This document shows, in pieces, positions 43,289 to 64,000 of a stretch of DNA of 64,000 bases. The stretch is from NCBI RefSeq assembly GCF_003003285.1, contig NZ_PVTP01000009.1, positions 62,001 to 126,000 of the forward strand. The letters run 5' to 3'. Positions within the stretch are counted from its first letter, which is position 1. Each line of letters begins with the position of its first letter. The position numbers were made by a program, and so were the translations under genes. This DNA comes from Yoonia maritima (lineage in GTDB: Bacteria; Pseudomonadota; Alphaproteobacteria; Rhodobacterales; Rhodobacteraceae). The notes beneath the pieces are model-generated. The model did no database searches. It was not told the origin of the DNA and was given only the letters and a program-made list of their open reading frames with translations.

Positions 43289-43948
43289 TTAAACGAGAAC
43301 AGAGTTAACAATTGTGTGAACAACGTCGTCTCTGAGGGCAATTTGACCTTCTTGTGTGGCAATCTCATTGCCAAAAATTACGGAAAAAGTTGATTCGTTG
43401 GATACATTGAAAAAGCACAGGCCACTAATCTTCCAGTGGAGCTGTAGCGGGTTAATGTCGCTTCTGAAGATGCCTTGTTGCATTCCGCGTTCTAAAATTT
43501 CCTGAAGCTGTTCAACCGCAGGAGAATTGCCTGCCTTTATGGTTTCGGAAGCTGCAACATGTGATCCACGATGTATGTTTTCGATCATGACAAGACGAAT
43601 GAAATCTTCGTTTTGGCGGTGGTGATCAAATGTATAGGACACCAGTTTTCGCAGTGCGGCAACAGGATCTAGGTTTTCAAGTTCTAGGGCTTTTTCCCCG
43701 TTCCGTACGTCACGGTAGGCTTGCTCAAGTACCTCACGATACAGGCTTTCCTTGTCTTTAAAGTAGTAAAAGATCATCCGCTTTGACGTCTTGGTGCGCG
43801 AAGCAATTTCTTGCGCGCGCGCGCCCGACAGCCCGTGTGCTGCAAATTCTTCTCGGGCAACCCGTAGAATGTCGGCCTTCACGGCTTCGGGGTCTTGCTT
43901 CCATGTTGCACGTTGGCGTGAGGCTTTGGGTTTTGCTTCGGCTGTCAT
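43289..43948 (-). CDS. TetR-family regulator of the shikimate/quinate operon (inferred)
   Basis: 219 residues with a TetR-type helix-turn-helix, GARAQEIASRTKTSKRMIFY then YFKDKESLYREVL, and a helical ligand-binding part. AAGGA precedes the ATG. It is divergent from the dehydrogenase gene, and the 137-base gap contains two near-identical operator-like repeats. Most likely it represses the operon and is released by shikimate, quinate or a pathway intermediate. Confidence 0.88.
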   Translation of the reverse strand: MTAEAKPKASRQRATWKQDPEAVKADILRVAREEFAAHGLSGARAQEIASRTKTSKRMIFYYFKDKESLYREVLEQAYRDVRNGEKALELENLDPVAALRKLVSYTFDHHRQNEDFIRLVMIENIHRGSHVAASETIKAGNSPAVEQLQEILERGMQQGIFRSDINPLQLHWKISGLCFFNVSNESTFSVIFGNEIATQEGQIALRDDVVHTIVNSVLV

Positions 43949-43980
43949 GTGACATCCTTAGCCGCAATTTACGCCCTTCG

Positions 43981-44004
43981 CAATTAACCGATTGGTTCAA
44001 AGCG
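43981..44004. promoter_or_regulatory. TetR operator candidate 1
   Basis: A 24-base element beginning CAATTAACCGATTGGTTCAA contains the inverted repeat TTAACC-GATT-GGTTCA. A second copy lies 33 bases downstream. Together they flank the -35 TTGACA at 44006-44011. Confidence 0.75.
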
Positions 44005-44005
44005 A

Positions 44006-44034
44006 TTGACAGGCAATTAACCGCATGGTTCATT
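44006..44034 (+). promoter_or_regulatory. Candidate promoter of the shikimate/quinate operon
   Basis: A consensus -35, TTGACA (44006-44011), is followed at 17 bases by TTCATT (44029-44034), a weak -10 inside the second operator repeat. A regulator bound there would block RNA polymerase. The -10 is poor, so the exact promoter is uncertain. Confidence 0.5.
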
Positions 44035-44037
44035 GCG
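44014..44037. promoter_or_regulatory. TetR operator candidate 2
   Basis: A 24-base element beginning CAATTAACCGCATGGTTCAT is a near copy of that at 43981-44004, keeping the AACC-N4-GGTT core. The spacing of 33 bases, about three helical turns, would place two dimers on the same face of DNA. Confidence 0.75.
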
Positions 44038-44085
44038 CTTGTTCCAGCGGGCAAGGTTCGGATTCGTTGGGGTGGGAGGACGTAA

Positions 44086-44970
44086 ATGACATCGCAACAA
44101 TCCATCGCAGTTGATTCTGGCGTATACGATGATTTGGTTATCGGGCTCGTTGGGCGCGGAATTCAAAGTTCACGTACCCCACGGATGCACATGGCCGAAG
44201 GTGCCGCGCAGGGTCAGCGGATCATCTATCAGTTGCTTGATGTTGACCAGTTTCCGGGCGGTGACCGCCCGCTCCAACAGATAATTGACGCCGCAGAGAT
44301 TTGTGGATTTTCCGGTCTTAATATCACGTTTCCATATAAAATTGACGTTATGCCGCTATTAGATGGCCTTTCAGACAATGCACGCGCGATTGGCGCGGTG
44401 AACACAGTTGTGTTCAAAGACGGTAAGCGGATTGGTCACAACACCGACAAAGTGGGTTTCCAAGAGGGATTTCGTCAAAACATGCCCGGCGCAAACCTTA
44501 ACCATGTCTTGCAGATCGGGGCAGGGGGTGCTGGTGTCGCCGTTGCGCATGCGCTTGCGTCTTTGGGTGTTCAGCGTCTGACAATCGCCGACAGCGACCA
44601 TGGTCGCGCTGTTGCTTTGCAAACTCAAATTGCTGCGGGACACGAAGGTGTCACCGTTGATGTAGCTGATCTTAAGGAGATGCTAGACCTTGTTCCTGAT
44701 GGTATCGTGAACGCGACGCCTGTCGGAATGGCCAAGTTACCGGGCACGTCTTACCCCGTGTCGCTGCTGCGCCCCGAGATGTGGGTTGCAGATATCGTAT
44801 ATTTTCCGCTTGAAACTGAATTGTTGGCCGCCGCGCGTGCCAAAGGCTGCCGCGTGCTGCCCGGTTCAGGAATGGCCGTTTATCAGGCTGTACGAGCGTT
44901 CGAACTTTTCACCGGGCGTCAGCCAGATGCGGCCCGGATGAAAGCAACTTTTGAGGCTATGACCTCATAA
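44086..44970 (+). CDS. Shikimate/quinate dehydrogenase (AroE family, catabolic type)
   Basis: 294 residues. Catalytic lysine K85 in FPYKIDVMPLLD and aspartate D121 in HNTDKVGFQEGF match the AroE family; the NAD(P)-binding loop is GAGGAGVAVAH (145-155). The N-terminal substrate loop reads SSRTPRMH rather than the S-x-S-P-x-x-H of biosynthetic AroE, typical of the catabolic quinate/shikimate dehydrogenases. GGAGG precedes the ATG. As first gene of an operon with QuiC and Pca enzymes, it probably oxidises shikimate or quinate. Confidence 0.85.
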   Translation: MTSQQSIAVDSGVYDDLVIGLVGRGIQSSRTPRMHMAEGAAQGQRIIYQLLDVDQFPGGDRPLQQIIDAAEICGFSGLNITFPYKIDVMPLLDGLSDNARAIGAVNTVVFKDGKRIGHNTDKVGFQEGFRQNMPGANLNHVLQIGAGGAGVAVAHALASLGVQRLTIADSDHGRAVALQTQIAAGHEGVTVDVADLKEMLDLVPDGIVNATPVGMAKLPGTSYPVSLLRPEMWVADIVYFPLETELLAAARAKGCRVLPGSGMAVYQAVRAFELFTGRQPDAARMKATFEAMTS

Positions 44971-45013
44971 ACGACGCTGCGAAAGCAGTACTACACGCAA
45001 AAGGGAGGATACC

Positions 45014-46021
45014 ATGCGTTTCACATTTAAATCCATCGCCGTTTCTACAGCGGTTGTTATGGCGCTTGCGACATCTGTTGCACAGGCGCAAACCATTCGC
45101 ATCGCGCACGTTGATCCAGACGAATGGACAGGCTCCAAGAAAGGTGCTGCAGCACAGATTTTCCGTAACATCGTCGAAGGCGAAACCGGTCTGTCAGTTG
45201 AGATCTTCCCAGCCGGCGCTTTGGGCAACGAAGACGAACTGGTTGGTCAGGTTCAAGAAGGCCTGCTGCAAATGGCGATCGTTTCTGGCGCAATGTCCAA
45301 AGCATGCCCAGCAGCATCTGTTCTAGACATTCCTTACACATTCGCATCCGCGACTGTTGCTTGGGATGTTCTTGACGGTGAATTCGGCGAAGCACTGGGC
45401 GAGCACTGCCTAGAGCAGACTGGCATGCGTACTTTGGCGTACGGCGAAACTGGTTTCCGTAACTTCACAAACAACACACGTGAAATTCGCACACCCGCAG
45501 ACATGGAAGGTCTGAAGTTCCGCGTGCAGCCTATCCCGCTGTACCTGGAAATGGTAAGCGGTCTTGGCGGTGAGCCAACACCAATCGCATGGACAGAACT
45601 GCCAAACGCGCTTTCTACTGGTGTTGTTGACGGTCAGGAAAACCCTGTTGGCGTTATCTACAACAACGGCCTGCACCAGCTGCAAAAGTACATGACACTG
45701 GACGGCCACGTTTACGCGGCTGACTTCCTTGTCATCAGCGACGAATTCTACCAGTCGCTGACAGCAGCAGAGCAAGAAGTTGTTGCACGTGCGGCAGTTG
45801 TTGCAGGTAACATGGGTCGTTCGATCCAGCAGTGGACATCTGCCGAAGGCGTTCTGGCTGTTCAGGCCGAAGGCATGCAGATTTACTCTCCGACTGCTGA
45901 CGAACTGGCAATGTTTGCTGAAAAAGCACAGCCAGCTGTAGTAGAATTCCTGCGCGGCGAGCTTGGTGACGACGCTGCTTGGATCGACCAACTGCAAGCT
46001 GCTGTTGCTGCGGCACAGTAA
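45014..46021 (+). CDS. TRAP transporter substrate-binding protein (shikimate/quinate operon)
   Basis: 335 residues, signal peptide about 1-25 (MRFTFKSIAVSTAVVMALAT, ending AQA). The DctP fold is clear from IEVSG-free regions such as FRNFTNNTREIRTPADMEGL and LKFRVQPIPLYLEMVSGLGG, which includes the arginine that usually binds a ligand carboxylate, and WTELPNALSTGVVDGQENPV. With the two following genes it makes a complete TRAP system. Ligand is inferred from context to be shikimate, quinate or dehydroshikimate. Confidence 0.88.
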   Translation: MRFTFKSIAVSTAVVMALATSVAQAQTIRIAHVDPDEWTGSKKGAAAQIFRNIVEGETGLSVEIFPAGALGNEDELVGQVQEGLLQMAIVSGAMSKACPAASVLDIPYTFASATVAWDVLDGEFGEALGEHCLEQTGMRTLAYGETGFRNFTNNTREIRTPADMEGLKFRVQPIPLYLEMVSGLGGEPTPIAWTELPNALSTGVVDGQENPVGVIYNNGLHQLQKYMTLDGHVYAADFLVISDEFYQSLTAAEQEVVARAAVVAGNMGRSIQQWTSAEGVLAVQAEGMQIYSPTADELAMFAEKAQPAVVEFLRGELGDDAAWIDQLQAAVAAAQ

Positions 46022-46089
46022 AGAAACACTTTGGTAGGCGGCATCTAGGTGCCGCCTGCCGAACTACGAGCCATGTAGGAGCCAGCCAA

Positions 46090-46617
46090 ATGACCAAACT
46101 GAATTCACTCGTAAGCCGAATATTCGGTTGGGGCGCTGGCCTATCAATGGGGCTGGTTTTTGTAATCATCTTTGTAAATTCATTGCGCCGTTACACTGTC
46201 GGGCAATCCGTCCAATGGGGTGAAGAACTGCCCGTTTACCTTGCCGTTTACGGTGTCATGTTCGGTGTCGCGCTGGCCTATATGCAAGACCGCCACATCC
46301 GTTTCACAATCGTGATCGATTTTCTGAATGAACGCCGCAAGACGATCATGTTTATCCTTGGTGACGTGCTGATGGCCGTGACCGGTGTGATGCTTGTTCT
46401 TTCTGCACTGGCGTTTGTTGAACGCCGTGGTGACACGATGTCGTCGGGTATGTTTGGCCTGTCGCGTTGGTTGGGTGATGTGACCGGTATCAAGGCGCTA
46501 GATGCGCTTGGTACGCTTGGACCATACCAATACGCGCTTGTTATTGGCGGCGCGATGATCACGCTGGCTGCCGTATTGAAATTCATCGAGCGTGCAACCG
46601 CGCTGCGGGGACTATAA
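46090..46617 (+). CDS. TRAP transporter small permease (DctQ)
   Basis: 175 residues from ATG 46090, with AGGAG eight bases upstream. Four membrane segments; the conserved DctQ motif VQWGEELPVYLAVYGVMFGV and the AYMQDRHIRFTIVIDFL loop are visible. It works with the DctM subunit in a sodium-driven importer in the inner membrane. dctM starts just after the stop. Confidence 0.9.
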   Translation: MTKLNSLVSRIFGWGAGLSMGLVFVIIFVNSLRRYTVGQSVQWGEELPVYLAVYGVMFGVALAYMQDRHIRFTIVIDFLNERRKTIMFILGDVLMAVTGVMLVLSALAFVERRGDTMSSGMFGLSRWLGDVTGIKALDALGTLGPYQYALVIGGAMITLAAVLKFIERATALRGL

Positions 46618-46618
46618 T

Positions 46619-47902
46619 ATGATCTACGTTATCTTGATCGCGGGCCTTTTGATTGGCGCGCCGATTGCCTTTGCTATCCTTGCTTCGCTTTCTTACTTTA
46701 TGGCGACAGGCGACGCGCCATACAATTTGCGTATCGTCGCAACAGAGCTATTCAATGGTCTGAACTCCTATCCGCTGCTCGCTATCCCACTGTTCGTTCT
46801 AGCCGGAGAGCTGATGAACGAAAGCGGTATCACTGGCCGGATTATCGCATTCGCGAATGTCCTTGTTGGCCGTATGCGGGCGGGCCTCGCGATGGTGAAC
46901 ATCTGGGCCTCTGTTATCTTTGCTGGTCTTTCTGGGTCTGCGGTTGCTGATACCTCTGCGATCGGTCGTGTGTTTATCCCTGAAATGGAAAAGCACGGTT
47001 ATGACCGCGCCTATGCTGCCGCGTTGACTGCCGCGTCATCTGTTATCGGTCCGATTATCCCGCCGTCTATTCCTGTCATCATCTATGCGTTGATCGTAAC
47101 GGGTGTTTCAGTGCCTGCATTGTTCATGGCTGGGATCATTCCGGGGCTGTTGCTGGCTGTGTTCTTGTCCGTCTACGTCATGCTGACCGTCGACATGAAA
47201 AAGATCAACGCGGCGTCCGCTGCCCTGAACGAAGAAAAACAGCCCGCACGTGAAGCCCTGCTTGGTGGTATCTTGCCGCTGATGATGCCGGTGTTTGTTG
47301 TCGGTTCGATCCTGATGGGGGTCGTCACCCCGACCGAGGCTGCCAGCTTTGCTGTGGCTTATGCGCTTGTCATCGGTACGTTTGTTTACCGCAAGATCAA
47401 GATTTCCGCCCTGCCGCGTCTGTTCACCGAAGCCATGCGCGATAGTGCGGTTATTATGATCATCATCGCTGCTGTATCTGCCGCGAACTGGTTGCTGACC
47501 TATAACCGTGTGCCAAACATGCTGACGGATTGGGTGTTGGGTAACGTTGATAGCAAAACGACCTTCTTAATTGCTGTGATCATTCTGTTCTTGTTCGTCG
47601 GCCTGTTCCTAGAAGGCATCGCTGCGATGCTGGTGCTTGTGCCAATCCTGCACCCAATCGCCGTGAGCTTTGGCATCGATCCTGTGCATTTCGGAATTTT
47701 GGTTATCTTTAACCTGATGATTGGTCTGATCACCCCACCTCTTGGGTTGTGTCTATTCGTTGCCGAAGGGATAGCCGGGGTCGGGATGGCCCGACTGACC
47801 AAAGCGATCTTGCCGTTCTTCTTGGTTGAAGTTGCCGTTCTGCTTGTTCTGACTTTCGTGCCTGAAACAGTCACCTGGCTGCCAACCGCATTAGGATACT
47901 AA
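46619..47902 (+). CDS. TRAP transporter large permease (DctM)
   Basis: 427 residues from ATG 46619, about twelve membrane segments. Typical DctM sequences are FAGLSGSAVADTSAIGRVFI, SVIGPIIPPSIPVIIYALIV and FNLMIGLITPPLGLCLFVAE. It is the transport channel of this TRAP system. quiC begins one base after its stop. Confidence 0.92.
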   Translation: MIYVILIAGLLIGAPIAFAILASLSYFMATGDAPYNLRIVATELFNGLNSYPLLAIPLFVLAGELMNESGITGRIIAFANVLVGRMRAGLAMVNIWASVIFAGLSGSAVADTSAIGRVFIPEMEKHGYDRAYAAALTAASSVIGPIIPPSIPVIIYALIVTGVSVPALFMAGIIPGLLLAVFLSVYVMLTVDMKKINAASAALNEEKQPAREALLGGILPLMMPVFVVGSILMGVVTPTEAASFAVAYALVIGTFVYRKIKISALPRLFTEAMRDSAVIMIIIAAVSAANWLLTYNRVPNMLTDWVLGNVDSKTTFLIAVIILFLFVGLFLEGIAAMLVLVPILHPIAVSFGIDPVHFGILVIFNLMIGLITPPLGLCLFVAEGIAGVGMARLTKAILPFFLVEVAVLLVLTFVPETVTWLPTALGY

Positions 47903-47903
47903 C

Positions 47904-49790
47904 ATGAAAACCTCGATCGCCACGGTCTCTATCTCTGGTAGCCTTCCTGAAAAACTGGATGCCATTCAAAAGGCAGGGTTCGACGGGATCGAGATTTTCG
48001 AACAGGACTTTATCGCCCATGACGGCAGTCCGCGCGAAGTGGGCAATATGATCCGCGACATGGGGCTGGACATCACGCTGTTCCAACCCTTCCGCGATTT
48101 CGAAAGCCTGCCAGAACCGTTGCGCGCCAAAGCGTTTGATCGTGCAGAGCGCAAGTTCGACTTGATGCAGGAACTCGGCACCGATTTGGTGCTGATCTGT
48201 TCGTCTTGTCATCCCGAGGCTATCGGTGGCATCGACCGGGCAGCTGCCGATTTCCATGAACTGGGCGAACGCGCTGCAAAACGCGGGTTGCGTGTTGGCT
48301 ATGAGGCATTGGCGTGGGGTAAGCACGTTAATGATCACCGCGATGCATGGGAAATCGTGCGCCGTGCTGATCATGAAAACGTTGGGCTGATTGTTGACAG
48401 CTTTCATACGCTTTCCCGCAAGTTAGACCCGAATTCGATCCGCAGTGTGCCGGGCGACAAGATTTTCTTTGTACAGCTGGCTGATGCACCGCTGATTGAC
48501 ATGGACCTGCTGTACTGGTCCCGCCATTTCCGGAACATGCCGGGCGAGGGCGATTTGGACGTTACAGGTTTCATGCAAGCTGTCATGGCAACCGGATATA
48601 GCGGCCCGATCAGTCTTGAAATCTTCAACGACCAATTCCGCGGTGGTAGCCCGACAACGATTGCCAAGGACGGCCACCGTTCACTGATCGCGTTGATGGA
48701 TGATGTACGTCGTACAGAACCCACCGTGACCGTCGATATGCCTGCAATGCCCCCACGTATTGGGGTAAACGGTGTTTCGTTCGTGGAATTCGCATCGCGT
48801 GGGGCCGAGGCCGAACAGCTAGAGGCCATGCTGCAAACGCTGGGCTTTGAAAAGGCGGGCAATCACATTGCAAAGAACCTCGCGCTGTGGACACAAGGCG
48901 ATGTCCGGATCGTGGTCAACCGCGAAACCGAAGGCTATGCCAGCAGCGCCTACACCATGCATGGCACCACAGTTTGCGATATTGGCCTTTCTGTCGACAA
49001 TGCCGCTGCGACAGTGGCGCGTGCGATGGCGCTTGGTGCGAACACGTTCAATCAACCAGTCGGCCCCGGCGAATTGGATATCCCTGCGATCCGTGGGCTT
49101 TCCGGATCAGTAATGCATTTCATTGACGAAGAAAGCGGTCTTTCCAACGTTTGGTCGGTCGAATTCACGTCGGATGAAAATGTCGGTACTGGCGCGGGTT
49201 TGCGCAGTATCGACCACCTTGCCCAAACCATGAGCTATGACGAGATGCTAAGCTGGTCACTGTTTTACACGTCGTTGTTCAGCATGGGGAAATCGCCGAT
49301 GTTTGACGTGGTCGACCCTGACGGGTTGGTGCGCAGCCAAGCATTAGAGACCAAAGACGGCAGTTTCCGTATCACGCTAAACGGGGCTGAAACGCATCGC
49401 ACCATGGCGGGGAACTTCCTTGCCGATAGCTTTGGCGCGTCGGTTCAGCATATCGCGCTTGCCACCGATGATATCTTTGCGACACGGGACGCGATGGCCG
49501 AATGTGGCTTCAAGCCGCTACCGATGTCCGACAATTACTATGCCGATTTGGCAGCGCGGTTCACGCTGTCCGACGAAAAGCTGGCCAAGCTAAAGGCTGG
49601 CAGTATTCTGTATGACGAAGATGCCAATGGCGCGTTCTATCAGTTCTATTCGCAACCATATGCGGGCGGAATGTTCTTTGAGATCGTTCAACGCAAAGGT
49701 GGCTATGCGGGTTACGGTGCACCAAATGCGCCTTTCCGCATTGCCGCGCAGAAACGCCTGATGCGTCCTAAAGGTATGCCAAAAGCCTAA
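47904..49790 (+). CDS. quiC: 3-Dehydroshikimate dehydratase fused to HPPD-like domain
   Basis: 628 residues in two domains. The N-terminal sugar-isomerase-like TIM barrel (1-270) carries metal ligands E134, D165, Q191 and E239, which agree with the positions I recall for Pseudomonas putida QuiC1. It should convert 3-dehydroshikimate to protocatechuate. The C-terminal part (290-628) is a 4-hydroxyphenylpyruvate dioxygenase-like vicinal oxygen chelate domain that still has the 2-His-1-Glu set H438, H516 and E593; its role in QuiC enzymes is unclear. The gene is tightly coupled to the TRAP genes. Confidence 0.92.
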   Translation: MKTSIATVSISGSLPEKLDAIQKAGFDGIEIFEQDFIAHDGSPREVGNMIRDMGLDITLFQPFRDFESLPEPLRAKAFDRAERKFDLMQELGTDLVLICSSCHPEAIGGIDRAAADFHELGERAAKRGLRVGYEALAWGKHVNDHRDAWEIVRRADHENVGLIVDSFHTLSRKLDPNSIRSVPGDKIFFVQLADAPLIDMDLLYWSRHFRNMPGEGDLDVTGFMQAVMATGYSGPISLEIFNDQFRGGSPTTIAKDGHRSLIALMDDVRRTEPTVTVDMPAMPPRIGVNGVSFVEFASRGAEAEQLEAMLQTLGFEKAGNHIAKNLALWTQGDVRIVVNRETEGYASSAYTMHGTTVCDIGLSVDNAAATVARAMALGANTFNQPVGPGELDIPAIRGLSGSVMHFIDEESGLSNVWSVEFTSDENVGTGAGLRSIDHLAQTMSYDEMLSWSLFYTSLFSMGKSPMFDVVDPDGLVRSQALETKDGSFRITLNGAETHRTMAGNFLADSFGASVQHIALATDDIFATRDAMAECGFKPLPMSDNYYADLAARFTLSDEKLAKLKAGSILYDEDANGAFYQFYSQPYAGGMFFEIVQRKGGYAGYGAPNAPFRIAAQKRLMRPKGMPKA

Positions 49791-49858
49791 GTCCCGCGTG
49801 TCACTGGTGGTCTGGCTATGAACCTGATTTAATTGGCGCAAATACTTTTGGGGGCACT

Positions 49859-50698
49859 ATGACTAATCCTTGCATTATCTGCGTCGCAATTACTGGGTCT
49901 CTTCCGACCAAGGAAAATAACCCGGCAGTGCCGATCACGATCTCCGAGCAAATCGAAAGCACGCAAGAAGCATTCGAGGCAGGGGCGACTATTGCCCACT
50001 GTCACGTCCGTGATGACGAAGGTAAACCAACATCGGATCCTGATCGCTTTGCGCGTCTTAAGGAAGGGTTGGAAAAACACTGCTCCGGGATGATTGTGCA
50101 GCTGTCCACTGGTGGCCGTTCAGGTGCGGGGCGTGATCGCGGCGGGATGCTTTCGCTGCGTCCAGATATGGCGTCGCTGTCTGTCGGGTCCAACAATTTC
50201 CCAACGCGGGTGTATGAAAACAGCCCCGATCTGGTCGATTGGTTGGCGTCTGAAATGCAAACCTATGACGTCAAGCCAGAGATCGAAGCATTCGACCTAA
50301 GCCACATCGTACAGGCGACCCGCATGGCCGCCGATGGGCGGCTCAAGTCGCCATTGTACGTGCAGTTCGTGATGGGCGTGAAGAACGCGATGCCAGCGGA
50401 CGAGCCGATTTTCGATTTCTATATCGAAACGCTTAAGCGCCTTGCGCCCGATGCGCAGTGGTGTGCTGCAGGGATCGGACAGGCGCAGCTTACGATCAAT
50501 GAATGGTCTATTGCTAAAGGCGGGCATACGCGAACTGGATTGGAAGACAACGTGCGCCTGGATCGCAACACGTTGGCATCGTCCAATGCAGCCTTGGTGC
50601 AGCGGGCCGTGGACCTGTGCGAAAAATACGAACGCCCGGTTGCGACCTGGCAGCAAGCCCGCGACATCCTGGGCCTGCGCAAAGTCGAAACAGCCTGA
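49859..50698 (+). CDS. BKACE-family beta-keto acid cleavage enzyme (DUF849)
   Basis: 279 residues. Zinc ligands H47 and H49 in ATIAHCHVRD and E227 in RTGLEDNVRLD match the Kce/BKACE family, as does the STGGRSGAGRDR segment. Known members condense a beta-keto acid with acetyl-CoA to give acetoacetate and a new CoA ester. Lying between quiC and pcaD, its natural substrate may be beta-ketoadipate, which would yield succinyl-CoA and acetoacetate. This is an inference from family chemistry and context. GGGGG precedes the ATG. Confidence 0.87.
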   Translation: MTNPCIICVAITGSLPTKENNPAVPITISEQIESTQEAFEAGATIAHCHVRDDEGKPTSDPDRFARLKEGLEKHCSGMIVQLSTGGRSGAGRDRGGMLSLRPDMASLSVGSNNFPTRVYENSPDLVDWLASEMQTYDVKPEIEAFDLSHIVQATRMAADGRLKSPLYVQFVMGVKNAMPADEPIFDFYIETLKRLAPDAQWCAAGIGQAQLTINEWSIAKGGHTRTGLEDNVRLDRNTLASSNAALVQRAVDLCEKYERPVATWQQARDILGLRKVETA

Positions 50699-50709
50699 GG
50701 ACCGAACAA

Positions 50710-51492
50710 ATGCCATTCGCTAATGTAAACGATGTGACGCTACACTACCGGTATCGGGCGGGTTCCGGCACGGCTGTGGTATTTCTGAACTCACTCGGAA
50801 CGGATTTCCGCATTTGGGACGAAGTCATCGCCGATATGGACCGTGATACGCCGGTGCTTTGTATGGATAAGCGCGGTCATGGCCTTAGCGACGACGCAGA
50901 GATCACCATGGACCTTTTGGTCGCTGATGTTGCCGCGTTGATGGACCAGTTGGAGATTAAGAATGCTCTGATTTGTGGGGATTCAGTTGGCGGAATTATC
51001 GCGCAGGGATTGGCCGCAACGCGTGCGGATTTGGTTTCGGGGCTGGTTCTATGCTGCACAGGGGCAAAGATTGGCGATGCCGACGGTTGGAACGCCCGGA
51101 TCAACGCCGTGCAGTCAGATGGCATCGAGCCAATCGCAGATACGATTATGGAACGCTGGTTTTCGCCGGGCTATATTTCGACGCAGCCAGCGGGGCTAGC
51201 TGGGTATCGCAACATGTTGGTGCGCACTTCGGCTGTGGGTTACGCAGGTGTGTGTGCTGCAATCCGCGACACGGATTACCGTGAACAAACCGCCCAGCTT
51301 ACTGTGCCGACCCATTGTGTTGCGGGGACAGCGGATATGTCGACGCCTGTTCCATTGTTGCAAGAGCTTGCCACGATGATCAAAGGTGCGACGCTGGAAG
51401 TGATCGAAGGTGTTGGACATCTGCCGTGTATTGAGGTCCCTAAACGGGTGGCGGCAACTGTCACTAACATGCGAGGCGCGCTCAATGACTGA
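50710..51492 (+). CDS. pcaD: 3-Oxoadipate enol-lactonase
   Basis: 260 residues from ATG 50710, with TGAGGA upstream. Alpha/beta hydrolase with nucleophile S92 in LICGDSVGG and the oxyanion region FLNSLGTDFRIWD typical of PcaD; the catalytic histidine is in EGVGHLPCIEVP. It hydrolyses beta-ketoadipate enol-lactone. No carboxymuconolactone decarboxylase domain is fused, so PcaC must come from elsewhere. It overlaps pcaB by eight bases. Confidence 0.88.
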   Translation: MPFANVNDVTLHYRYRAGSGTAVVFLNSLGTDFRIWDEVIADMDRDTPVLCMDKRGHGLSDDAEITMDLLVADVAALMDQLEIKNALICGDSVGGIIAQGLAATRADLVSGLVLCCTGAKIGDADGWNARINAVQSDGIEPIADTIMERWFSPGYISTQPAGLAGYRNMLVRTSAVGYAGVCAAIRDTDYREQTAQLTVPTHCVAGTADMSTPVPLLQELATMIKGATLEVIEGVGHLPCIEVPKRVAATVTNMRGALND

Positions 51493-52543
51493 CGTTTTTA
51501 ACCACCCGTGGCTTAGCGGCCTGTTGAGCGATGCAGAGGCAAGTGCGATCTTTGGCCCTGACCGTCAGTTGGCGCATATGATGGCGTTCGAAGTCGCGTT
51601 CACGCGCGCGCTGGGTCGTGCTGGGGTCGTGGCCGAAGACGTTGCTACAACGGTCGCGGATCAGCTGGCCGGCTTTACGCCTGACATTGCTGATTTACAG
51701 GTCGGATCGGGCCGAGATGGCTTGCCGGTTCCAGCATTGGTCGCGCAACTGAAAGCACTGGCAGGTGATAACGCCAAGGCGGTGCATAGCGGTGCGACAT
51801 CGCAAGATGTGATCGATACTGCGCTGGCCCTTTCAGTTCAGGAATTCAACGCACTGTTGCGGAAACGTCTGACCGGTTTGGTCGCTGCGCTGCGCAATCT
51901 GATTGCCCAGTTTGGCGAAAACCAAATGATGGGCCGGACGCGTATGCAGGCGGCCGTACCGATCACTGTGGCGGACCGTTTGGAAACATGGGTGCAGCCG
52001 CTTGAGGCACATCAGGAACGACTTGCACAGATCCAACCGCGTGTTGAATGCCTGCAGCTTGGCGGTGCCGCAGGGAACCGCGCTGCTTTGGGTGAAAATG
52101 CAACTGCGATTGCCGCTGATATGGCGCAGCAGTTAGGTCTCCAAAATCCAGAACGGGCATGGCACGCTATGCGTGATGGCATCGCCGAATACGCGGGACT
52201 TTTGTCTCTGATCAGCGGTAGCTTGGGCAAGATGGGCCAGGACGTTTGTCTTATGGCCCAGCAAGGCGTCGGTGAGATTGGGATGGATGGCGGCGGCGGT
52301 TCATCTGCCATGCCACATAAACAGAACCCTGTTCTGGCCGAATTGCTTGTCACGCTCGCGCGTTTCAATGCGACCCAAGTTGCTGGAATACACAATGCGA
52401 TGATTCACGAGCAAGAACGGTCCGGCGCTGCTTGGACACTCGAATGGATGATTCTGCCGCAGATGGCGCTGGCAACTGCCCGCAGTTTGTCCGCCGCAAA
52501 GACCCTTAGCGACCAGATCACACGGATCGGTACAGCCGCCTAA
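51485..52543 (+). CDS. pcaB: 3-Carboxy-cis,cis-muconate cycloisomerase
   Basis: 352 residues from ATG 51485. Fumarase/aspartase superfamily with the signature GGSSAMPHKQNPVLAE and the HSGATSQDVIDTALAL segment. It is shorter than Pseudomonas PcaB (about 450) because the C-terminal lyase domain is reduced, as in other rhodobacterial forms. It converts 3-carboxymuconate to the lactone. Last gene of the shikimate/quinate operon; no clear terminator follows. Confidence 0.87.
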   Translation: MTDVFNHPWLSGLLSDAEASAIFGPDRQLAHMMAFEVAFTRALGRAGVVAEDVATTVADQLAGFTPDIADLQVGSGRDGLPVPALVAQLKALAGDNAKAVHSGATSQDVIDTALALSVQEFNALLRKRLTGLVAALRNLIAQFGENQMMGRTRMQAAVPITVADRLETWVQPLEAHQERLAQIQPRVECLQLGGAAGNRAALGENATAIAADMAQQLGLQNPERAWHAMRDGIAEYAGLLSLISGSLGKMGQDVCLMAQQGVGEIGMDGGGGSSAMPHKQNPVLAELLVTLARFNATQVAGIHNAMIHEQERSGAAWTLEWMILPQMALATARSLSAAKTLSDQITRIGTAA

Positions 52544-52678
52544 GCGGAAACGTGCTGATCGATGTTCCAGGCGAACGCGTGCTTTCGATCCACAATTAGG
52601 GATTGCATTCGAAGGCGCGCCGACTGTTTCTGCGCCTGCATAACCTTTGCTGCACTGCAAAATTTATAATATTTTTTG

Positions 52679-52708
52679 TTGACCTATGCTGAGCGTAAGT
52701 TCTTTATA
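52679..52708 (+). promoter_or_regulatory. Candidate promoter of the hydroxycinnamate operon
   Basis: TTGACC (52679-52684), an 18-base spacer and TTTATA (52703-52708), about 130 bases before the SDR gene. The surrounding sequence is AT-rich. Prediction only. Confidence 0.45.
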
Positions 52709-52779
52709 GGAATAGTAAAAATGTGTTTTGCGCTTAGGGGTTGTATCGCTCGCGCTGCCGCGGTCTGAGTATCGAGTTC

Positions 52780-52802
52780 AATTGTTCATTGACATAACAA
52801 TT
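52780..52802. promoter_or_regulatory. Inverted repeat, candidate MarR operator
   Basis: AATTGTT (52780-52786) and AACAATT (52796-52802) form a perfect 7-9-7 inverted repeat that includes a consensus TTGACA (52789-52794). It lies 35 bases before the first gene of the operon that encodes a MarR regulator, so it is a natural operator candidate. Confidence 0.55.
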
Positions 52803-52836
52803 CGGATGATGAAGCTTTCCGGCAGGGAGGACGATA

Positions 52837-53601
52837 ATGACACTAGTGGATACTTGCGTTGTGGTGACCGGTGCGGGCAGTGGCCTAGGCGCTGCGACTG
52901 CAAAACGTTTCTCACAACTTGGCGCAAAAGTGGCTTGTCTTGATCTTAGCGGCGACGCTGCGAGCGAAATTGCGTCCCAAATTGACGGTATTGGATATGC
53001 CGTTGATGTTTCCGATAGCGCTGCAGTAGAGGCCGTTTTTGAAAAAATCGGCGTTGAGATCGGGGTGCCGCGGGTCGTCGTGTCCTGCGCAGGAATTGGC
53101 ACTGCCAGCCGTATTTTGCCGCGCGACGGTAGCCTGACAATCGATAGTTTCGAAAAGACTTTGCGCGTTAATTTATTGGGGACCTACGCGGTAATGAATA
53201 TCGCAGCGCGCGCGATGGCCGCCGCTGACCCGATCAACACGGATGGGCAACGGGGCGTGATTATCAATACCGCGTCAGTTGCTTTCGAAGATGGGCAGAT
53301 CGGCCAAGCCGCCTACTCTGCATCAAAGGGCGGGATCGTTTCCATGACTTTGCCGGCTGCGCGTGAACTTGCGCGGTTTGGCATCCGCGTTATGGCGATT
53401 GCCCCGGGTCTTTTTGAAACCTCTATGAGCGCAGGCCTGCCAGACGACGCCCGTTCAGAAATTCTAAAAGCGGTGCCGTTTCCATCACGGATGGGCGACG
53501 CCGATGAATATGCCCGACTGGTGCAAAGCATCGTCGAGAACCCCATGCTCAACGGTACGGTGATCCGTCTTGATGCCGCTGCGCGTATGCCGATTAAGTA
53601 A
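52837..53601 (+). CDS. SDR oxidoreductase, 3-hydroxyacyl-CoA dehydrogenase-like
   Basis: 254 residues. NAD motif TGAGSGLG (11-18), NAG-type segment SCAGIG, and catalytic S147, Y160 and K164 (NTASVAF and YSASKGG). The pattern with APGLFETSMSAGLPDD resembles type-2 3-hydroxyacyl-CoA dehydrogenases. Beside a crotonase and a feruloyl-CoA synthase it could oxidise a beta-hydroxy acyl-CoA from a cinnamic acid. GGGAGGA precedes the ATG. First gene of the operon. Confidence 0.85.
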   Translation: MTLVDTCVVVTGAGSGLGAATAKRFSQLGAKVACLDLSGDAASEIASQIDGIGYAVDVSDSAAVEAVFEKIGVEIGVPRVVVSCAGIGTASRILPRDGSLTIDSFEKTLRVNLLGTYAVMNIAARAMAAADPINTDGQRGVIINTASVAFEDGQIGQAAYSASKGGIVSMTLPAARELARFGIRVMAIAPGLFETSMSAGLPDDARSEILKAVPFPSRMGDADEYARLVQSIVENPMLNGTVIRLDAAARMPIK

Positions 53602-53610
53602 GGAAAAATA

Positions 53611-54390
53611 GTGTCCAACACGCCTACAGAACCTGTTCTATTGATTGACGTTGATGGCCCGATTGCCACTTTGACGATGAACCGTCCGGCCAAGCGGAAC
53701 GCGATGTGCGATGAACTGCTTGATGACATCGATGCGTTCTTTGCAAAGCCGCCCGAAGGCGTGCGTGTTGTGATTATGGTCGGCACCGCGGGGCACTATT
53801 GTTCTGGGTTGGACCTTTCTGAACATGTTGCGCGCGATGCTGAAGGCACGATGCGCCATTCGCGTAACTGGCACCGGGTCATGGATACGATCCAGTTCTC
53901 TGGCTTGCCAGTTGTGTCGGCCATGTTTGGTGCTGTGATTGGTGGCGGGCTTGAGATGGCTGCCTCGACGCATGTGCGTATTGCGGAACCGTCTACCATT
54001 TTCCAACTGCCCGAAGGGCGGCGTGGAATTTACGTTGGTGGCGGTGCTTCTGTTCGGATTGGCCGCATTCTGGGTGCTGACCGGATGTGTGAAATGATGC
54101 TGACTGGGCGCAAATATGACGCCCAAGAAGGCCTGGCGATGGGTCTGACCCATTATGCCGTAGGTGAGGGCGAGGCGCTGCCTTTGGCCCGTGAACTTGC
54201 TGGAAAGATCGCGCGCAATGCGCAGCTTTCCAACTATATGATGATTCAGGCGATTAGCCGGATTTCAGATATGTCTCGTAGTGATGGATTGTTTACCGAA
54301 AGTCTTGCCGCAGCGGTCTCTCAGACCAGTGCGGATGCCGAAGAAGGGCTCAAGGCATTCTTAGAAAAAAGAAAACCTGTTTTCCGGTAA
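53611..54390 (+). CDS. Crotonase-family enoyl-CoA hydratase/lyase
   Basis: 259 residues from GTG 53611, with AAGGAAAA upstream. Crotonase oxyanion-hole elements are PAKRNAMCDELLDD and GHYCSGLDLSEH, then GAVIGGGLEMAAST; the acidic residue E135 lies in PEGRRGIYVGGG. In this operon it most likely hydrates feruloyl- or coumaroyl-CoA and may release the aldehyde by retro-aldol cleavage, as in Ech/HcaA enzymes. Hydratase-only activity feeding the SDR is the alternative. Confidence 0.85.
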   Translation: MSNTPTEPVLLIDVDGPIATLTMNRPAKRNAMCDELLDDIDAFFAKPPEGVRVVIMVGTAGHYCSGLDLSEHVARDAEGTMRHSRNWHRVMDTIQFSGLPVVSAMFGAVIGGGLEMAASTHVRIAEPSTIFQLPEGRRGIYVGGGASVRIGRILGADRMCEMMLTGRKYDAQEGLAMGLTHYAVGEGEALPLARELAGKIARNAQLSNYMMIQAISRISDMSRSDGLFTESLAAAVSQTSADAEEGLKAFLEKRKPVFR

Positions 54391-54435
54391 TCCGGGAAAC
54401 CAAGAAGCTATCTTTTCCAAAACAGGGGAAACTAA

Positions 54436-55476
54436 ATGACAACAATGACACGCCGTACGGCACTTGCTTCGATGGGGGCCGCGCTTGCGACACCCGCGCT
54501 TGTTTCTAATCTGAACGCCGCCGAAGTGACGCTGCGCCTGCACCACTTCTTGCCACCTGTCGCACCAATGCAAAAACAGTTCTTTGAGGTGTGGTCCGCC
54601 GAGCTGTCCGAAGCTACAAACGGTGCCGTAGAAGTGCAGATCTTCCCAGCAATGCAATTGGGTGGTAAGCCGCCACAGCTTGCTGATCAGGTTCGTCAAG
54701 GTATCTGTGATATCGCATGGACACTGCCAGTTTACACACCTGACCGTTTCCCAATCGCTGAAACAATGTCGAACCCATTCATGGTGACCAACGCTGAAAA
54801 GTCTTCAGTTGCGATGCACACATTGATGGATGAATTCGGCCAAGGTGAATACCGCGGCATCAAGCCACTGGCGTTCCACACACACGATGGCGGCAAGCTG
54901 CACACACGCAACGCGCCTGTGCTTAGCAAAGCGGACCTGCAAGGTCTGAAACTGCGCGCGCCGAACCAGTCTACCGGTGACATGCTGACTGCACTTGGTG
55001 CAGAGGTCGTGTTCTTCCCAGTTACTGACATGGTTGTTGGCCTGTCCAACGGCGTGATCGACGGTTGCTGCCTACCATACGAAGTTGTGCCTGCATTCAA
55101 ACTACAGGAACTGACATCTTACACTGCTGCCCCGGCACCTGCGTCACGCGGTCTGTATTCGAACACCTTCGCGTTCATCATGAACGAAGCAAAATACGAA
55201 GGCATGTCTGACGATATCCGTGCTGCGGTTGATGCTGCATCCGGCATGCAGTTGTCACAGCGTTTGGGCGCACAGTTCGACGTATTCGAAGCAGGCGGTA
55301 AAGCTGCTGTCGAAGCACAAGGCAACACAATCGTAGAAATTCCAGCCGAAGAAATCGCGTCTTGGCAGGAAGAAGCAGCGCCGGTCCACGAAGCGTGGAT
55401 CGAAAAGCTGAACGGCATGGGCCACGACGGTGCTGCTGTGATGGCACGCGCAAACGAACTGCTGGACGCAGGCTGA
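54436..55476 (+). CDS. TRAP transporter substrate-binding protein (hydroxycinnamate operon)
   Basis: 346 residues with a twin-arginine-type signal MTTMTRRTALASMGAALATP, ending near NAA. The DctP fold includes LKLRAPNQSTGDMLTALGAE with the ligand-carboxylate arginine and GLSNGVIDGCCLPYEVVPAF. Several TRAP binding proteins in aromatic operons of alphaproteobacteria bind p-coumarate and ferulate, and this is the natural guess here. The next two genes supply the membrane subunits. Confidence 0.87.
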   Translation: MTTMTRRTALASMGAALATPALVSNLNAAEVTLRLHHFLPPVAPMQKQFFEVWSAELSEATNGAVEVQIFPAMQLGGKPPQLADQVRQGICDIAWTLPVYTPDRFPIAETMSNPFMVTNAEKSSVAMHTLMDEFGQGEYRGIKPLAFHTHDGGKLHTRNAPVLSKADLQGLKLRAPNQSTGDMLTALGAEVVFFPVTDMVVGLSNGVIDGCCLPYEVVPAFKLQELTSYTAAPAPASRGLYSNTFAFIMNEAKYEGMSDDIRAAVDAASGMQLSQRLGAQFDVFEAGGKAAVEAQGNTIVEIPAEEIASWQEEAAPVHEAWIEKLNGMGHDGAAVMARANELLDAG

Positions 55477-55483
55477 TCTGATC

Positions 55484-56020
55484 ATGTCTGAACCGATTGT
55501 TCACCAGACAGGAGAGAGTAACTCTCTCCTGTACCGGCTTTTGCATGCCGTCTGCATCTCTAGCGCTGCGATTGGCGGGCTGGTGATTTTCGGAGCGGCA
55601 TTTGTTGTTACGTATTCGGTGCTATCCAGCACCCTTGGATTCGGCGCTGTGCGCGGCGAATTCGAACTTGTCGAACTGGCCTGCGCCGCGAGCGCCTCGC
55701 TGTTTTTGCCGTTGTGCCAACTGACAAAAGGGCACGTCATGGTCGACGTGTTCACAAGCAAACTACCGGGGGCAATCAACACGACCGTTGATGCCGTCTG
55801 GACGCTGTTTTTTGCTTTGGGCTGGGCTTATCTTGCTTGGCGGTTAAGCGTCGGGCTCGAAGAAATCCACGGTTACGGTGACAAGACCATGCTTTTGCGT
55901 GCACCTGTCTGGTGGGTTTACGTTCCGGCCGTATTTGGCACCGGACTATCCGCAATCGTTGCCGCACTTATGGGCCTATCGGTGTTCATGCCGCGCCTTA
56001 TCCCGATGGAGGCCAAATAA
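55484..56020 (+). CDS. TRAP transporter small permease (DctQ)
   Basis: 178 residues with four membrane segments, e.g. ISSAAIGGLVIFGAAFVVTY, and the DctQ loop EFELVELACAASASLFLPLC then KGHVMVDVF. It starts seven bases after the binding protein gene. Its stop overlaps the dctM start by one base. Confidence 0.87.
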   Translation: MSEPIVHQTGESNSLLYRLLHAVCISSAAIGGLVIFGAAFVVTYSVLSSTLGFGAVRGEFELVELACAASASLFLPLCQLTKGHVMVDVFTSKLPGAINTTVDAVWTLFFALGWAYLAWRLSVGLEEIHGYGDKTMLLRAPVWWVYVPAVFGTGLSAIVAALMGLSVFMPRLIPMEAK

Positions 56021-57342: not shown

Positions 57343-57351
57343 GAGGACGAA

Positions 57352-57831: not shown

Positions 57832-57836
57832 ACACC

Positions 57837-59651: not shown

Positions 59652-59662
59652 GGAGCAAACAG

Positions 59663-60538: not shown

Positions 60539-62091
60539 CCCCATTCACTGCGCCAGTTGATGACATCTTGTTTTCGCTGCGCAGTGTTGCTGGCGCTACC
60601 AGCGTTGCTGATTGGGATGATGAACTTGCCAAAGGGATCATCACCCATTTTGCGTCTTTCGCCGCAGGTGTGATCGCGCCGCTTGACGAAAGCGGCGACC
60701 GTCAGGGCTGTCGGTTTGATAACGGCTGGGTGACGATGCCCGACGGGTTTGTCGCAGCGTTCGCGGAATTGGCCGAGGGCGGTTGGCAGGGGCTAAGCGC
60801 CCCGGAAGAATTCGGCGGAATGGCGCAAAATCATCTGATCGCGGCAGCCGTGTCAGAGGTGTTTTCCGGCGCGAACCACGCCATGCAAATGGTCTGTAAT
60901 CTGGTGCCCGGCGCAATTGCGACATTGATGCGGTTTGGGACGGACGATCAGAAATCAACTTGGGTTCCAAAGCTTGCAAGTGGCGAGGCACTATCGACGA
61001 TGTGCCTCACGGAACCGGGGGCGGGGTCTGATCTGTCGCGGATCCGGACCAAGTCGACCCGCAACGGTGAAAGCTGGCGTATTGATGGCGAAAAGATATT
61101 CATCTCGGGCGGTGATCAGGACATGTCGAATGACATCCTGCATCTGATCCTTGCCCGGACGGGGGATGCCAATTCGGGCGTGAAGGGTTTGTCGCTATTC
61201 ATCGCCAACAAAGCTGCTGCAGGCGATACGATCAAAGTTACACGGATTGAAGAAAAGCTGGGGCTGCATGCCTCACCCACCTGTCAGATGGTGTTTGACG
61301 CTGCGCCCGCCAAATTGGTCGGGCAAGAAGGTGCCGGGCTGGCCGCGATGTTCACCCTGATGAACCACGCACGGATTGATGTGGCGCTTCAGGGTGTAGC
61401 CCACGCGAGCCGCGCCCATGCGATTTCCGCTGCATATGCCGCCGAACGCAAACAGGGGCGTCGCGCTGACAAGTCAGATGCCGTTCTGGCCGATCATGCC
61501 GACGTGCGGCGCATGCTGGATGACCAACGCGCCCTGACGATGGGCGCACGCGCGATGGCGCATATTGCATTGGTGGAACTTGAAAAGGGTAATCGCCCCG
61601 GCCTCGTCGATTTTCTGACGCCGCTGTGCAAAGTGTTTTGCACCGAAGCGGGGATTACGTCCGCTGATCTAGGGATGCAGGTTTTGGGTGGATACGGCTA
61701 TCTGACTGAATACCGGGTATCCCAAACATGGCGCGATGCGCGGATCACGTCGATCTACGAAGGAGCGAATGGCATTCATTCACTGGCGACCGCAACACGC
61801 GGTTTGCGCGTCGGCGACGGGGCTGATGCGTTTGATGCCCTGATCGGCGAATTAACAGACCATCCTGCCGTCATGACATTGCGCGATACTTGGCGTGCCG
61901 CACGTAGACATGCGTTGAATTCCTATGATCCGGCGGTGATTGCCCATGATTATATGCAGCTGACGATGCAGCTATATTACCGTGCAGTTTGGTGCCGGAT
62001 CGCTGAGTGTGATGCGCAATATAATCGGCTGCGTGATGTGGCGTTATCCCGTCCAATCCCCGTGGCACCTGCCATGATGGCATTGGGCTAA
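60535..62091 (+). CDS. Acyl-CoA dehydrogenase (possibly dihydrocinnamoyl-CoA)
   Basis: 518 residues from GTG 60535, overlapping the amidohydrolase stop (GTGA). Acyl-CoA dehydrogenase motifs MCLTEPGAGSDLSRIRTKS and GYLTEYRVSQTWRDARITSI followed by YEGANGIHS, with the catalytic glutamate, are intact. In Acinetobacter, HcaD of the hca operon dehydrogenates dihydro-hydroxycinnamoyl-CoA; this gene may do the same. Its stop overlaps that of pcaQ on the other strand. Confidence 0.87.
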   Translation: MTPFTAPVDDILFSLRSVAGATSVADWDDELAKGIITHFASFAAGVIAPLDESGDRQGCRFDNGWVTMPDGFVAAFAELAEGGWQGLSAPEEFGGMAQNHLIAAAVSEVFSGANHAMQMVCNLVPGAIATLMRFGTDDQKSTWVPKLASGEALSTMCLTEPGAGSDLSRIRTKSTRNGESWRIDGEKIFISGGDQDMSNDILHLILARTGDANSGVKGLSLFIANKAAAGDTIKVTRIEEKLGLHASPTCQMVFDAAPAKLVGQEGAGLAAMFTLMNHARIDVALQGVAHASRAHAISAAYAAERKQGRRADKSDAVLADHADVRRMLDDQRALTMGARAMAHIALVELEKGNRPGLVDFLTPLCKVFCTEAGITSADLGMQVLGGYGYLTEYRVSQTWRDARITSIYEGANGIHSLATATRGLRVGDGADAFDALIGELTDHPAVMTLRDTWRAARRHALNSYDPAVIAHDYMQLTMQLYYRAVWCRIAECDAQYNRLRDVALSRPIPVAPAMMALG

Positions 62092-62996
62092 GGGCGCTGC
62101 ACGTAGTCCAAAAGGCTTTGCCGGAATAGATGCGCAATTGCGCTGGGGACTTCTTCGGACCTTGCCATGACGCCGATGGCACCTGTCGTCGCTGACATGT
62201 CGATATCGATTGCCACCAATCGCCCGCTTTCCAGATCATTGGCGACGACACCGTGTGAGATGAACCATATTGCTTGGGCGTTGCCCAAGGCCATTGCACG
62301 TCCGAATTCGCCGGACGCGCTTTCGATCCGGTTGTTGAACAGCGGAAGGCCCGAGGCGATCAGTTTGCCTGCAACCAAGGGCCGGATCGCCGCTGCTTGT
62401 GGTGGATAGACGATTGGGAATCCATCAAGCTGTTCAAGCTGCGTTGCACCGGCCAACGGATGGTTTGGGGCAACAACAATCACGACTTCTTCGGAATACA
62501 GTTGTGTGAATGATAGGCCGACCATGCTTTCGGGCCGTCCCAAACGCCCAACCGCGAGATCAAGCGCACCTGCGCGCAGGCGGTCAGTCATATATTCGTG
62601 GGGTCCTTCAAGCAATTGCACGACCGTACCCGGTGATTTTTGCCGAAAATCTTGCACCGCCCACGGAAGCAGTTGGCTTGCCACACTGGGCAGGGCGCCC
62701 ACAGTCAATGTGGGATTGCCGCCAGCCCCGATGCTGGCCACACTGCTTAATCCAGTCTGCAGGGCCTGCATGCTTTGTTCGGCAAAGGTCAAGAATACTT
62801 CGCCCTCGGGCGTGAGCCGCACGCCCGCACGACCACGATCCATCAGCTGCTTGCCGATGATCACCTCAAGGTCCTTGAGCGTTTTTGAAATCGCGGGCTG
62901 CGTCAGATGTAGCTGCTCAGCCGCGCGTTTCAGGCTTTTGGCTCGTGCAATGTGGGTGAACGCCTCTAGGTGGCGAAATTTAATTCTGCGGTCCAT
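62088..62996 (-). CDS. pcaQ: LysR-family regulator PcaQ
   Basis: 302 residues. The N-terminal helix-turn-helix MDRRIKFRHLEAFTHIARAK then SLKRAAEQLHLTQPAISKTL is characteristic of PcaQ, the activator of protocatechuate genes that responds to beta-ketoadipate-pathway intermediates. The effector domain spans about 90-300. It is divergent from pobA with a 94-base AT-rich gap and convergent with the hydroxycinnamate operon. It usually neighbours pcaDCHGB, which is not the case here. Confidence 0.83.
   Translation of the reverse strand: MDRRIKFRHLEAFTHIARAKSLKRAAEQLHLTQPAISKTLKDLEVIIGKQLMDRGRAGVRLTPEGEVFLTFAEQSMQALQTGLSSVASIGAGGNPTLTVGALPSVASQLLPWAVQDFRQKSPGTVVQLLEGPHEYMTDRLRAGALDLAVGRLGRPESMVGLSFTQLYSEEVVIVVAPNHPLAGATQLEQLDGFPIVYPPQAAAIRPLVAGKLIASGLPLFNNRIESASGEFGRAMALGNAQAIWFISHGVVANDLESGRLVAIDIDMSATTGAIGVMARSEEVPSAIAHLFRQSLLDYVQRP

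Positions 62997-63025: not shown

Positions 63026-64000
<975 letters not shown>

Follow-up and report, generated by a model that had tools for sequence, protein, structure and literature searches.

A predicted beta-ketoadipate-cleaving BKACE in a shikimate-type operon of Yoonia maritima, in a genome that also encodes PcaIJ and PcaF

Protocatechuate (pca) gene clusters with a DUF849 gene and with neither pcaIJ nor pcaF have been described in Methylobacterium, where a beta-keto acid cleavage enzyme (BKACE) acting on beta-ketoadipate has been suggested (PMC8963497); the gene has been named kce, with succinyl-coenzyme A (succinyl-CoA) and acetoacetate as the proposed products (PMC12379598). The same role has been predicted for a BKACE of Ralstonia eutropha H16 (PMC6449761), and the grouping of Bastard 2014 has beta-ketoadipate as one of the BKACE substrates (PMC4922564). 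In contrast, an island of M. extorquens SLI 505 is stated to have PcaIJ and PcaF (PMC12542667). A BKACE gene of the same predicted activity is found in a stretch of 64,000 nucleotides of Yoonia maritima contig NZ_PVTP01000009.1 (G000:C9:62001-126000, hereafter the window), in what is probably an operon for the uptake and breakdown of shikimate-like plant compounds. The reaction proposed for the Methylobacterium cluster (PMC8963497, PMC12379598) is the same, and the BKACE gene likewise lies near other pca genes, but there it is placed between pcaG and pcaB, whereas in Y. maritima pcaHG and pcaC lie apart, at a distance of about 12 kb, and the genome also has pcaIJF. The original prediction, made from the window alone, knew of no described operon with this arrangement; a pca cluster with BKACE and without pcaIJF had been described in Methylobacterium, but none of the papers listed in a literature search was found to describe the exact order QuiC-BKACE-PcaD-PcaB.

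The operon and its BKACE

The best explanation, considered quite probable, is that a protocatechuate pathway linked to a PcaQ cluster draws PcaB, PcaD and a beta-ketoadipate-splitting BKACE from a shikimate/dehydroshikimate operon, and that this pathway has two endings. The operon consists of the following genes (window positions):

44086..44970, + strand: shikimate (quinate/shikimate) dehydrogenase, SDH (NF009201, 384 bits, cut-off 235)
45014..46021, + strand: TRAP solute-binding protein DctP (TIGR00787, 186 bits, cut-off 175; PF03480, 237 bits)
46090..46617, + strand: putative TRAP small permease DctQ (open reading frame between DctP and DctM, with hydrophobic segments recognised by eye)
46619..47902, + strand: TRAP large permease DctM (TIGR00786, 407 bits, cut-off 268)
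47904..49790, + strand: QuiC-type two-domain 3-dehydroshikimate dehydratase, TIM barrel plus HPPD-like half (PF01261 and PF14696)
49859..50698, + strand: BKACE, 3-oxoadipate:acetyl-CoA acetyltransferase type (NF053568, 501 bits, cut-off 350; PF05853, 313.5 bits)
50710..51492, + strand: PcaD, 3-oxoadipate enol-lactonase (TIGR02427, 292 bits, cut-off 256)
51485..52543, + strand: PcaB (NF004631, 467 bits, cut-off 371)

The starts of DctQ, DctM, PcaD and PcaB are chosen inner ATG codons, the mechanical open reading frame starts being longer. SDH is below the cut-off of the quinate/shikimate dehydrogenase model NF010631 (289 bits, cut-off 515), and PcaB falls marginally short of TIGR02426 (350.4 bits, cut-off 355.75). 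The gene content originally predicted (SDH, TRAP importer, QuiC, BKACE, PcaD and PcaB, with a TetR-family regulator) is borne out by the open reading frames and profile matches. Transcription of SDH through PcaB as one unit, which was part of the same prediction, is likely, because the PcaD and PcaB genes share 8 bp and none of the remaining intergenic gaps exceeds 68 bp. A scan of positions 43900-52900 gave 5 promoter-like sites (shuffle mean 6.3, standard deviation 2.3) and 15 terminator-like sites (10.7, standard deviation 3.4), counts so near the shuffle means that they say little about the limits of the operon. Of the two substrates first proposed, shikimate fits better than quinate unless an enzyme encoded elsewhere helps, because no 3-dehydroquinate dehydratase is apparent among the operon genes, though no search aimed at one was made.

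The BKACE is very probably of the beta-ketoadipate type and is predicted to split beta-ketoadipate. Its best NCBIfam model is the equivalog NF053568, which it matches over nearly its full length with no sequence difference seen; the name of this model already states the reaction, and the proposed chemistry is therefore catalogued and not new. The model of the lysine-fermentation enzyme Kce gives 260 bits and fails its cut-off of 382. The match to PF05853 (cut-off 24.8) spans profile positions 1-274 of 274. The nearest solved structures are 3fa5 (500 bits), 3chv (478 bits) and 3no5 (424 bits), deposited as DUF849 or uncharacterised proteins, and the Kce structure 2y7d gives 184 bits. In the alignment with 2y7d, H47, H49, E229, R225 and D230 of the window protein occupy the positions of His46, His48, Glu230, Arg226 and Asp231, which are taken here to be the zinc ligands and catalytic residues of Kce, and L15, a leucine, aligns with the glutamate that presumably contacts the amino group of the Kce substrate. 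In its surroundings the window gene differs, sitting with QuiC and not beside pcaHG.

Two endings in one genome

No match to the CoA-transferase family PF01144 or the thiolase family PF00108 was found within the window, which agrees with the originally predicted absence of PcaIJ and PcaF as far as the window is concerned. The search of the genome that had been proposed as a check found otherwise: PcaF, PcaJ and PcaI are encoded on the same contig (G000:C9:2122-4775, - strand), about 107 kb away, with PcaR divergent beside them (TIGR02431, 333 bits, cut-off 285; pcaR-I-J-F cluster, C9:2122-5587). PcaF matches TIGR02430 with 698 bits (cut-off 597), PcaI and PcaJ match subfamily models, and internal stops are absent from the cluster. 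The genome thus falls outside the class of beta-ketoadipate pathways without PcaIJ and PcaF, and encodes both endings, not BKACE instead of PcaIJ/PcaF. BKACE as the sole ending, with PcaIJ and PcaF absent, was favoured by the lack of CoA-transferase and thiolase matches in the window, but the pcaRIJF cluster refutes it at the level of genes and leaves it next to no credence. A second CoA-transferase pair, on C7, is read as ScoAB.

The steps between protocatechuate and beta-ketoadipate are divided between the operon and a second cluster, of which two genes are in the window:

62088..62996, - strand: PcaQ, LysR regulator by the pobA-pcaCHG cluster (TIGR02424, 368 bits, cut-off 304)
63028..64000, + strand: PobA, 4-hydroxybenzoate 3-monooxygenase, crossing the window end (open reading frame L027:5029-6261, the true start being probably an inner ATG; TIGR02360, 695 bits, cut-off 539)

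PcaC, PcaH and PcaG, all equivalog matches over cut-off, follow PobA just beyond the window end, downstream of the operon, which is therefore not self-sufficient. The next best match to PcaB in the genome by score is only 27% identical, and in the absence of a second close copy the shikimate operon probably supplies PcaB to the 4-hydroxybenzoate route also, and perhaps PcaD, for which the next best match is 44% identical (C4).

In the scheme preferred here, the TRAP system would import shikimate, SDH would convert it to 3-dehydroshikimate, and QuiC would convert 3-dehydroshikimate to protocatechuate. PcaHG of the PcaQ cluster would open the protocatechuate ring, and the combined action of PcaB (operon), PcaC (PcaQ cluster) and PcaD (operon) would yield beta-ketoadipate, from which BKACE, with acetyl-CoA, would produce succinyl-CoA and acetoacetate. 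ScoAB may then activate the acetoacetate, the product being cleaved by a thiolase to acetyl-CoA. PcaIJ and PcaF, encoded beside PcaR, would constitute a second, classical ending, and the two endings are probably induced by different signals.

In the classical ending, PcaIJ converts beta-ketoadipate and succinyl-CoA to beta-ketoadipyl-CoA and succinate, and PcaF with CoA converts beta-ketoadipyl-CoA to succinyl-CoA and acetyl-CoA. ScoAB converts acetoacetate and succinyl-CoA to acetoacetyl-CoA and succinate, and thiolase with CoA yields two acetyl-CoA. By hand stoichiometry the net reaction of either ending is the conversion of beta-ketoadipate and CoA to succinate and acetyl-CoA; BKACE therefore re-orders the steps and saves none. 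The idea that BKACE could finish the pathway in one step was rejected, as acetoacetate still requires a CoA-transferase and a thiolase. The classical pcaIJF route thus has the same substrate and net reaction as the BKACE route, but employs different enzyme families and proceeds via beta-ketoadipyl-CoA, and growth yields alone cannot distinguish two endings of the same net balance.

BKACE across the family

Proteins of the window or its genome were used to search the family, each genus being represented by a single genome (149 in all). BKACE orthologs were counted in 101 of 102 matching genomes (116 matches used; G076, at 40% identity, and the partial G118:C42 were left out). PcaI was defined by at least 62% identity and at least 309 bits (18 genomes), with G066 and G088 (53-56%) considered borderline and matches of 46% or less read as ScoA-like. 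PcaH is present in 93 of the 149 genomes, and QuiC in 40 (E 1e-60, weakest match 38% identical). Among the 93 PcaH genomes, 74 have BKACE without PcaI, 10 have both (the window genome included), 2 have BKACE and a borderline PcaI, 4 have PcaI only and 3 have neither, while the 56 genomes without PcaH comprise 15 with BKACE, 4 with PcaI and 37 with neither. BKACE is strongly associated with PcaH (86 genomes with both, 15 with BKACE only, 7 with PcaH only, 41 with neither; Fisher p 5e-17). Among the genomes with PcaH, BKACE and PcaI show a tendency towards mutual exclusion (10 with both, 76 with BKACE only, 4 with PcaI only and 3 with neither, borderline matches counting as no PcaI; p 0.009); both p values presuppose that genera are independent, which is untrue, and absences in draft genomes are soft. 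The 86 PcaH genomes that are at least 90% complete divide into 68 with BKACE only, 12 with both (borderline included), 4 with PcaI only and 2 with neither. A CoA-transferase match at E 1e-50 is found in 59 of the 74 BKACE-only genomes, and the remaining 15 are not evidence of absence, since the ScoA-like gene of the window genome itself is just at the limit (2.4e-51).

These counts bear on the possibility, which is real but on the doubtful side, that this strain relies on PcaIJ and PcaF as its ending, with BKACE retained along with the operon for backup or overflow. The intact pcaRIJF cluster, the identical net chemistry and the 12 of 93 PcaH genomes with BKACE plus PcaI or a borderline PcaI are all consistent with such an arrangement. 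It is disfavoured by the 74 genomes that keep BKACE where PcaI was not found, as BKACE by itself is likely enough as an ending in these relatives, and by the tight gene run that BKACE shares with PcaD and PcaB in Y. maritima.

Flanking sequence of at most 8 kb in either direction from each of the 116 BKACE matches was searched with 19 proteins of the window genome; a number of these neighbourhoods are cut by contig ends, and the counts are lower bounds. pcaHG is within 4 kb of at least 59 of the 116 copies, any of pcaH, G, B, C and D is within 4 kb of at least 64, and ScoA/ScoB-like genes are within 3 kb of at least 5. QuiC is within 4 kb of 2 copies (the window and G135), and PcaI/PcaJ matches were found nowhere in the 116 fetched stretches. 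Among named loci (the best 80 of 590, which partly overlap with the 149-genome set, as with L244 and L065, so that the counts are not additive), 43 have pcaHG, 7 have ScoA/ScoB-like genes within 3 kb, 1 has PcaIJ (L242) and 4 have QuiC within 4 kb; they include records from Halomonas, Bradyrhizobium and Methylobrevis. The gene order is pcaDCHG-BKACE-scoAB in Yoonia vestfoldensis SKA53 (L233), BKACE-scoAB in Roseovarius gaetbuli (L238; pcaHG not in the stretch) and PcaC-H-G-BKACE in Leisingera ANG59 (L283) and ANG-Vp (L291). The original application of BKACE chemistry to beta-ketoadipate is thus upheld by the linkage with pcaHG as well as by the NF053568 score, at the level of prediction.

Limimaricola sp. 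G21655-S1 (L242) has both endings adjacent, a divergent pcaR and pcaIJF coming after pcaCHG-BKACE-PcaD-PcaB. In 9 of the 116 BKACE stretches (e.g., L112, L118, L150, L160), without pcaHG, there is a dioxygenase only 29-37% identical to PcaH, which possibly belongs to a catechol branch and in 7 cases is within 4 kb of BKACE.

Several points weigh against the preferred scheme. With PcaIJF present, BKACE may be dispensable for beta-ketoadipate in this strain. PcaI/PcaJ and ScoAB match the same subfamily models, and only percent identity and the proximity of PcaR and PcaF serve to separate them. The QuiC-type protein scores under the cut-off of its own model (NF042435, 674 bits over residues 1-618 of 628, cut-off 1200), and its predicted activity is suggested by the two-domain layout and by the match to PDB 5hmq (609 bits, residues 1-618). 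The presumed beta-ketoadipate activity of the BKACE subfamily rests on the NCBIfam name and on papers citing Bastard 2014. Furthermore, the promiscuity of BKACE is stressed (PMC4922564), 15 genomes of the family (among them G005, G009, G033, G037 and G040) have a BKACE ortholog without a PcaH match, and for 52 of the 116 copies the nearest 4 kb are free of pca genes at the thresholds used, some contigs ending early. These last three points would also suit a BKACE that acts mainly on some other beta-keto acid and is in the operon incidentally, but its far better score on the equivalog NF053568 than on the Kce model, its strong co-occurrence with PcaH and the proximity of pcaHG to at least half of its copies make this improbable.

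The survey touches on earlier reports from roseobacters. Phaeobacter, Pseudophaeobacter, Leisingera and Ruegeria are described as lacking pcaIJ, a 3-oxoacid CoA-transferase being proposed instead (PMC5064897). In Roseovarius nubinhibens pcaF is dispensable, a double mutant of pcaF and an acyltransferase still grows, to a lower optical density, and inactivation of ISM_RS03130 (named pcaI) halts growth on 4-hydroxybenzoate and severely represses its consumption, while Roseovarius sp. 217 and two Roseobacter strains, taken as pcaF-deficient backgrounds, are hypothesised to use beta-oxidation thiolases (PMC12442348). None of the terms BKACE, keto acid cleavage, DUF849, aminohexanoate and acetoacetate appears in the main text of that paper. 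Roseovarius sp. 217, inferred there to be pcaF-deficient, has BKACE inside a pca run (L258). BKACE may be the reason for the reported lack of pcaIJ and pcaF in roseobacters, and the balance of evidence leans towards BKACE accounting for growth of Roseovarius sp. 217 and pcaF-independent growth of R. nubinhibens on 4-hydroxybenzoate, with the CoA-transferase named pcaIJ there being ScoAB acting on acetoacetate, and PcaIJF being an added or retained second ending where both occur. The combination of BKACE and ScoAB would fit the R. nubinhibens results, and the reading of their authors, a true PcaIJ with redundant thiolases (PMC12442348), would fit them too; the puzzle of pcaF becomes open to test by one further gene deletion. 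None of the papers listed in a mostly open-access literature search was found to state that BKACE is the usual ending in roseobacters. Because 74 of the 93 PcaH genomes have BKACE where PcaI was not found, the last step may be wrong in annotations and flux models built on PcaIJF for marine roseobacters. The enzyme and its reaction are ordinary, and the arrangement and the possession of both endings are mildly unusual; the reaction in the window is known and its operon slightly reshuffled, and the pattern across the family matters more.

Make-up of the operon, its regulator and other loci

The operon looks like a join of two modules. Runs of SDH-TRAP-QuiC in the window order are found in G094 (L169) and G047 (L166), with SDH 54-59%, DctP 78-79%, DctM 82% and QuiC 71-72% identical to the window proteins, but unlike the window they have no match to BKACE, PcaD or PcaB in their 19 kb stretches. 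In several loci whose BKACE is closely related to that of the window (L065, L211, L213), BKACE-PcaD-PcaB comes after pcaCHG, and it appears that the two modules were joined in the window while pcaCHG stayed behind in the PcaQ cluster. The run in Roseovarius sp. 217 (SDH-QuiC-PcaC-PcaH-PcaG-BKACE-PcaD-PcaB) resembles the window in uniting QuiC, BKACE, PcaD and PcaB, but retains pcaCHG; its SDH is 33% identical, and the window DctP and DctM are unmatched in its stretch. Within the genus of the window, BKACE is present in 20 of 31 genomes, its own included, and QuiC is beside BKACE in the window genome, L209 and L214, of which the congener L209 also has the order QuiC-BKACE-PcaD-PcaB.

The regulator and its candidate operators are upstream of SDH:

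43289..43948, - strand: TetR-family regulator, TetR_N plus TetR_C_29, divergent from the operon (PF17938, 151 bits; PF00440, 46 bits)
43984..43999, + strand: candidate TetR operator TTAACCGNNTGGTTCA, copy 1 (pattern search)
44017..44032, + strand: candidate TetR operator TTAACCGNNTGGTTCA, copy 2, beginning 33 bp after the start of copy 1

The divergent position of this regulator suggests that it controls the operon, as originally proposed, and both copies of TTAACCGNNTGGTTCA are located between TetR and SDH. The pattern is present in 3 of 312 loci, namely L064 (the window's own stretch, with 2 sites), L286 and L169. In L169 one site directly precedes the SDH match of a further SDH-TRAP-QuiC run. 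For the looser core AACC-N4-GGTT the window has 3 sites versus 0.88 expected; 9 of 100 shuffles reach 3, and the count is therefore weak as sole evidence.

The genome encodes a second QuiC (G000:C21, L200:8223-10990, - strand) that is 69% identical to that of the window and has its own shikimate dehydrogenase-like gene; its neighbours look by eye like xanthine dehydrogenase and helpers, and no pca genes were matched in the 11 kb stretch. A second BKACE of the genome (G000:C2, L029:7692-8606) was rejected as a beta-ketoadipate enzyme with 172 bits on NF053568, and falls under the cut-off of each NCBIfam BKACE model that it matches. Downstream of it is a protein that looks by eye like a 3-hydroxyacyl-CoA dehydrogenase/thioesterase, and the locus presumably resembles one for carnitine breakdown.

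Between the operon and PcaQ, positions 52837-62091 of the window encode family matches to an SDR dehydrogenase, a crotonase, an acyl-CoA synthetase and an acyl-CoA dehydrogenase, together with a further TRAP importer, a MarR-like regulator and an amidohydrolase-like protein recognised by eye, the last two without an NCBIfam match at 1e-25. This run, which ends at PcaQ, has the appearance of a CoA-dependent route acting on a cyclic or aromatic acid.

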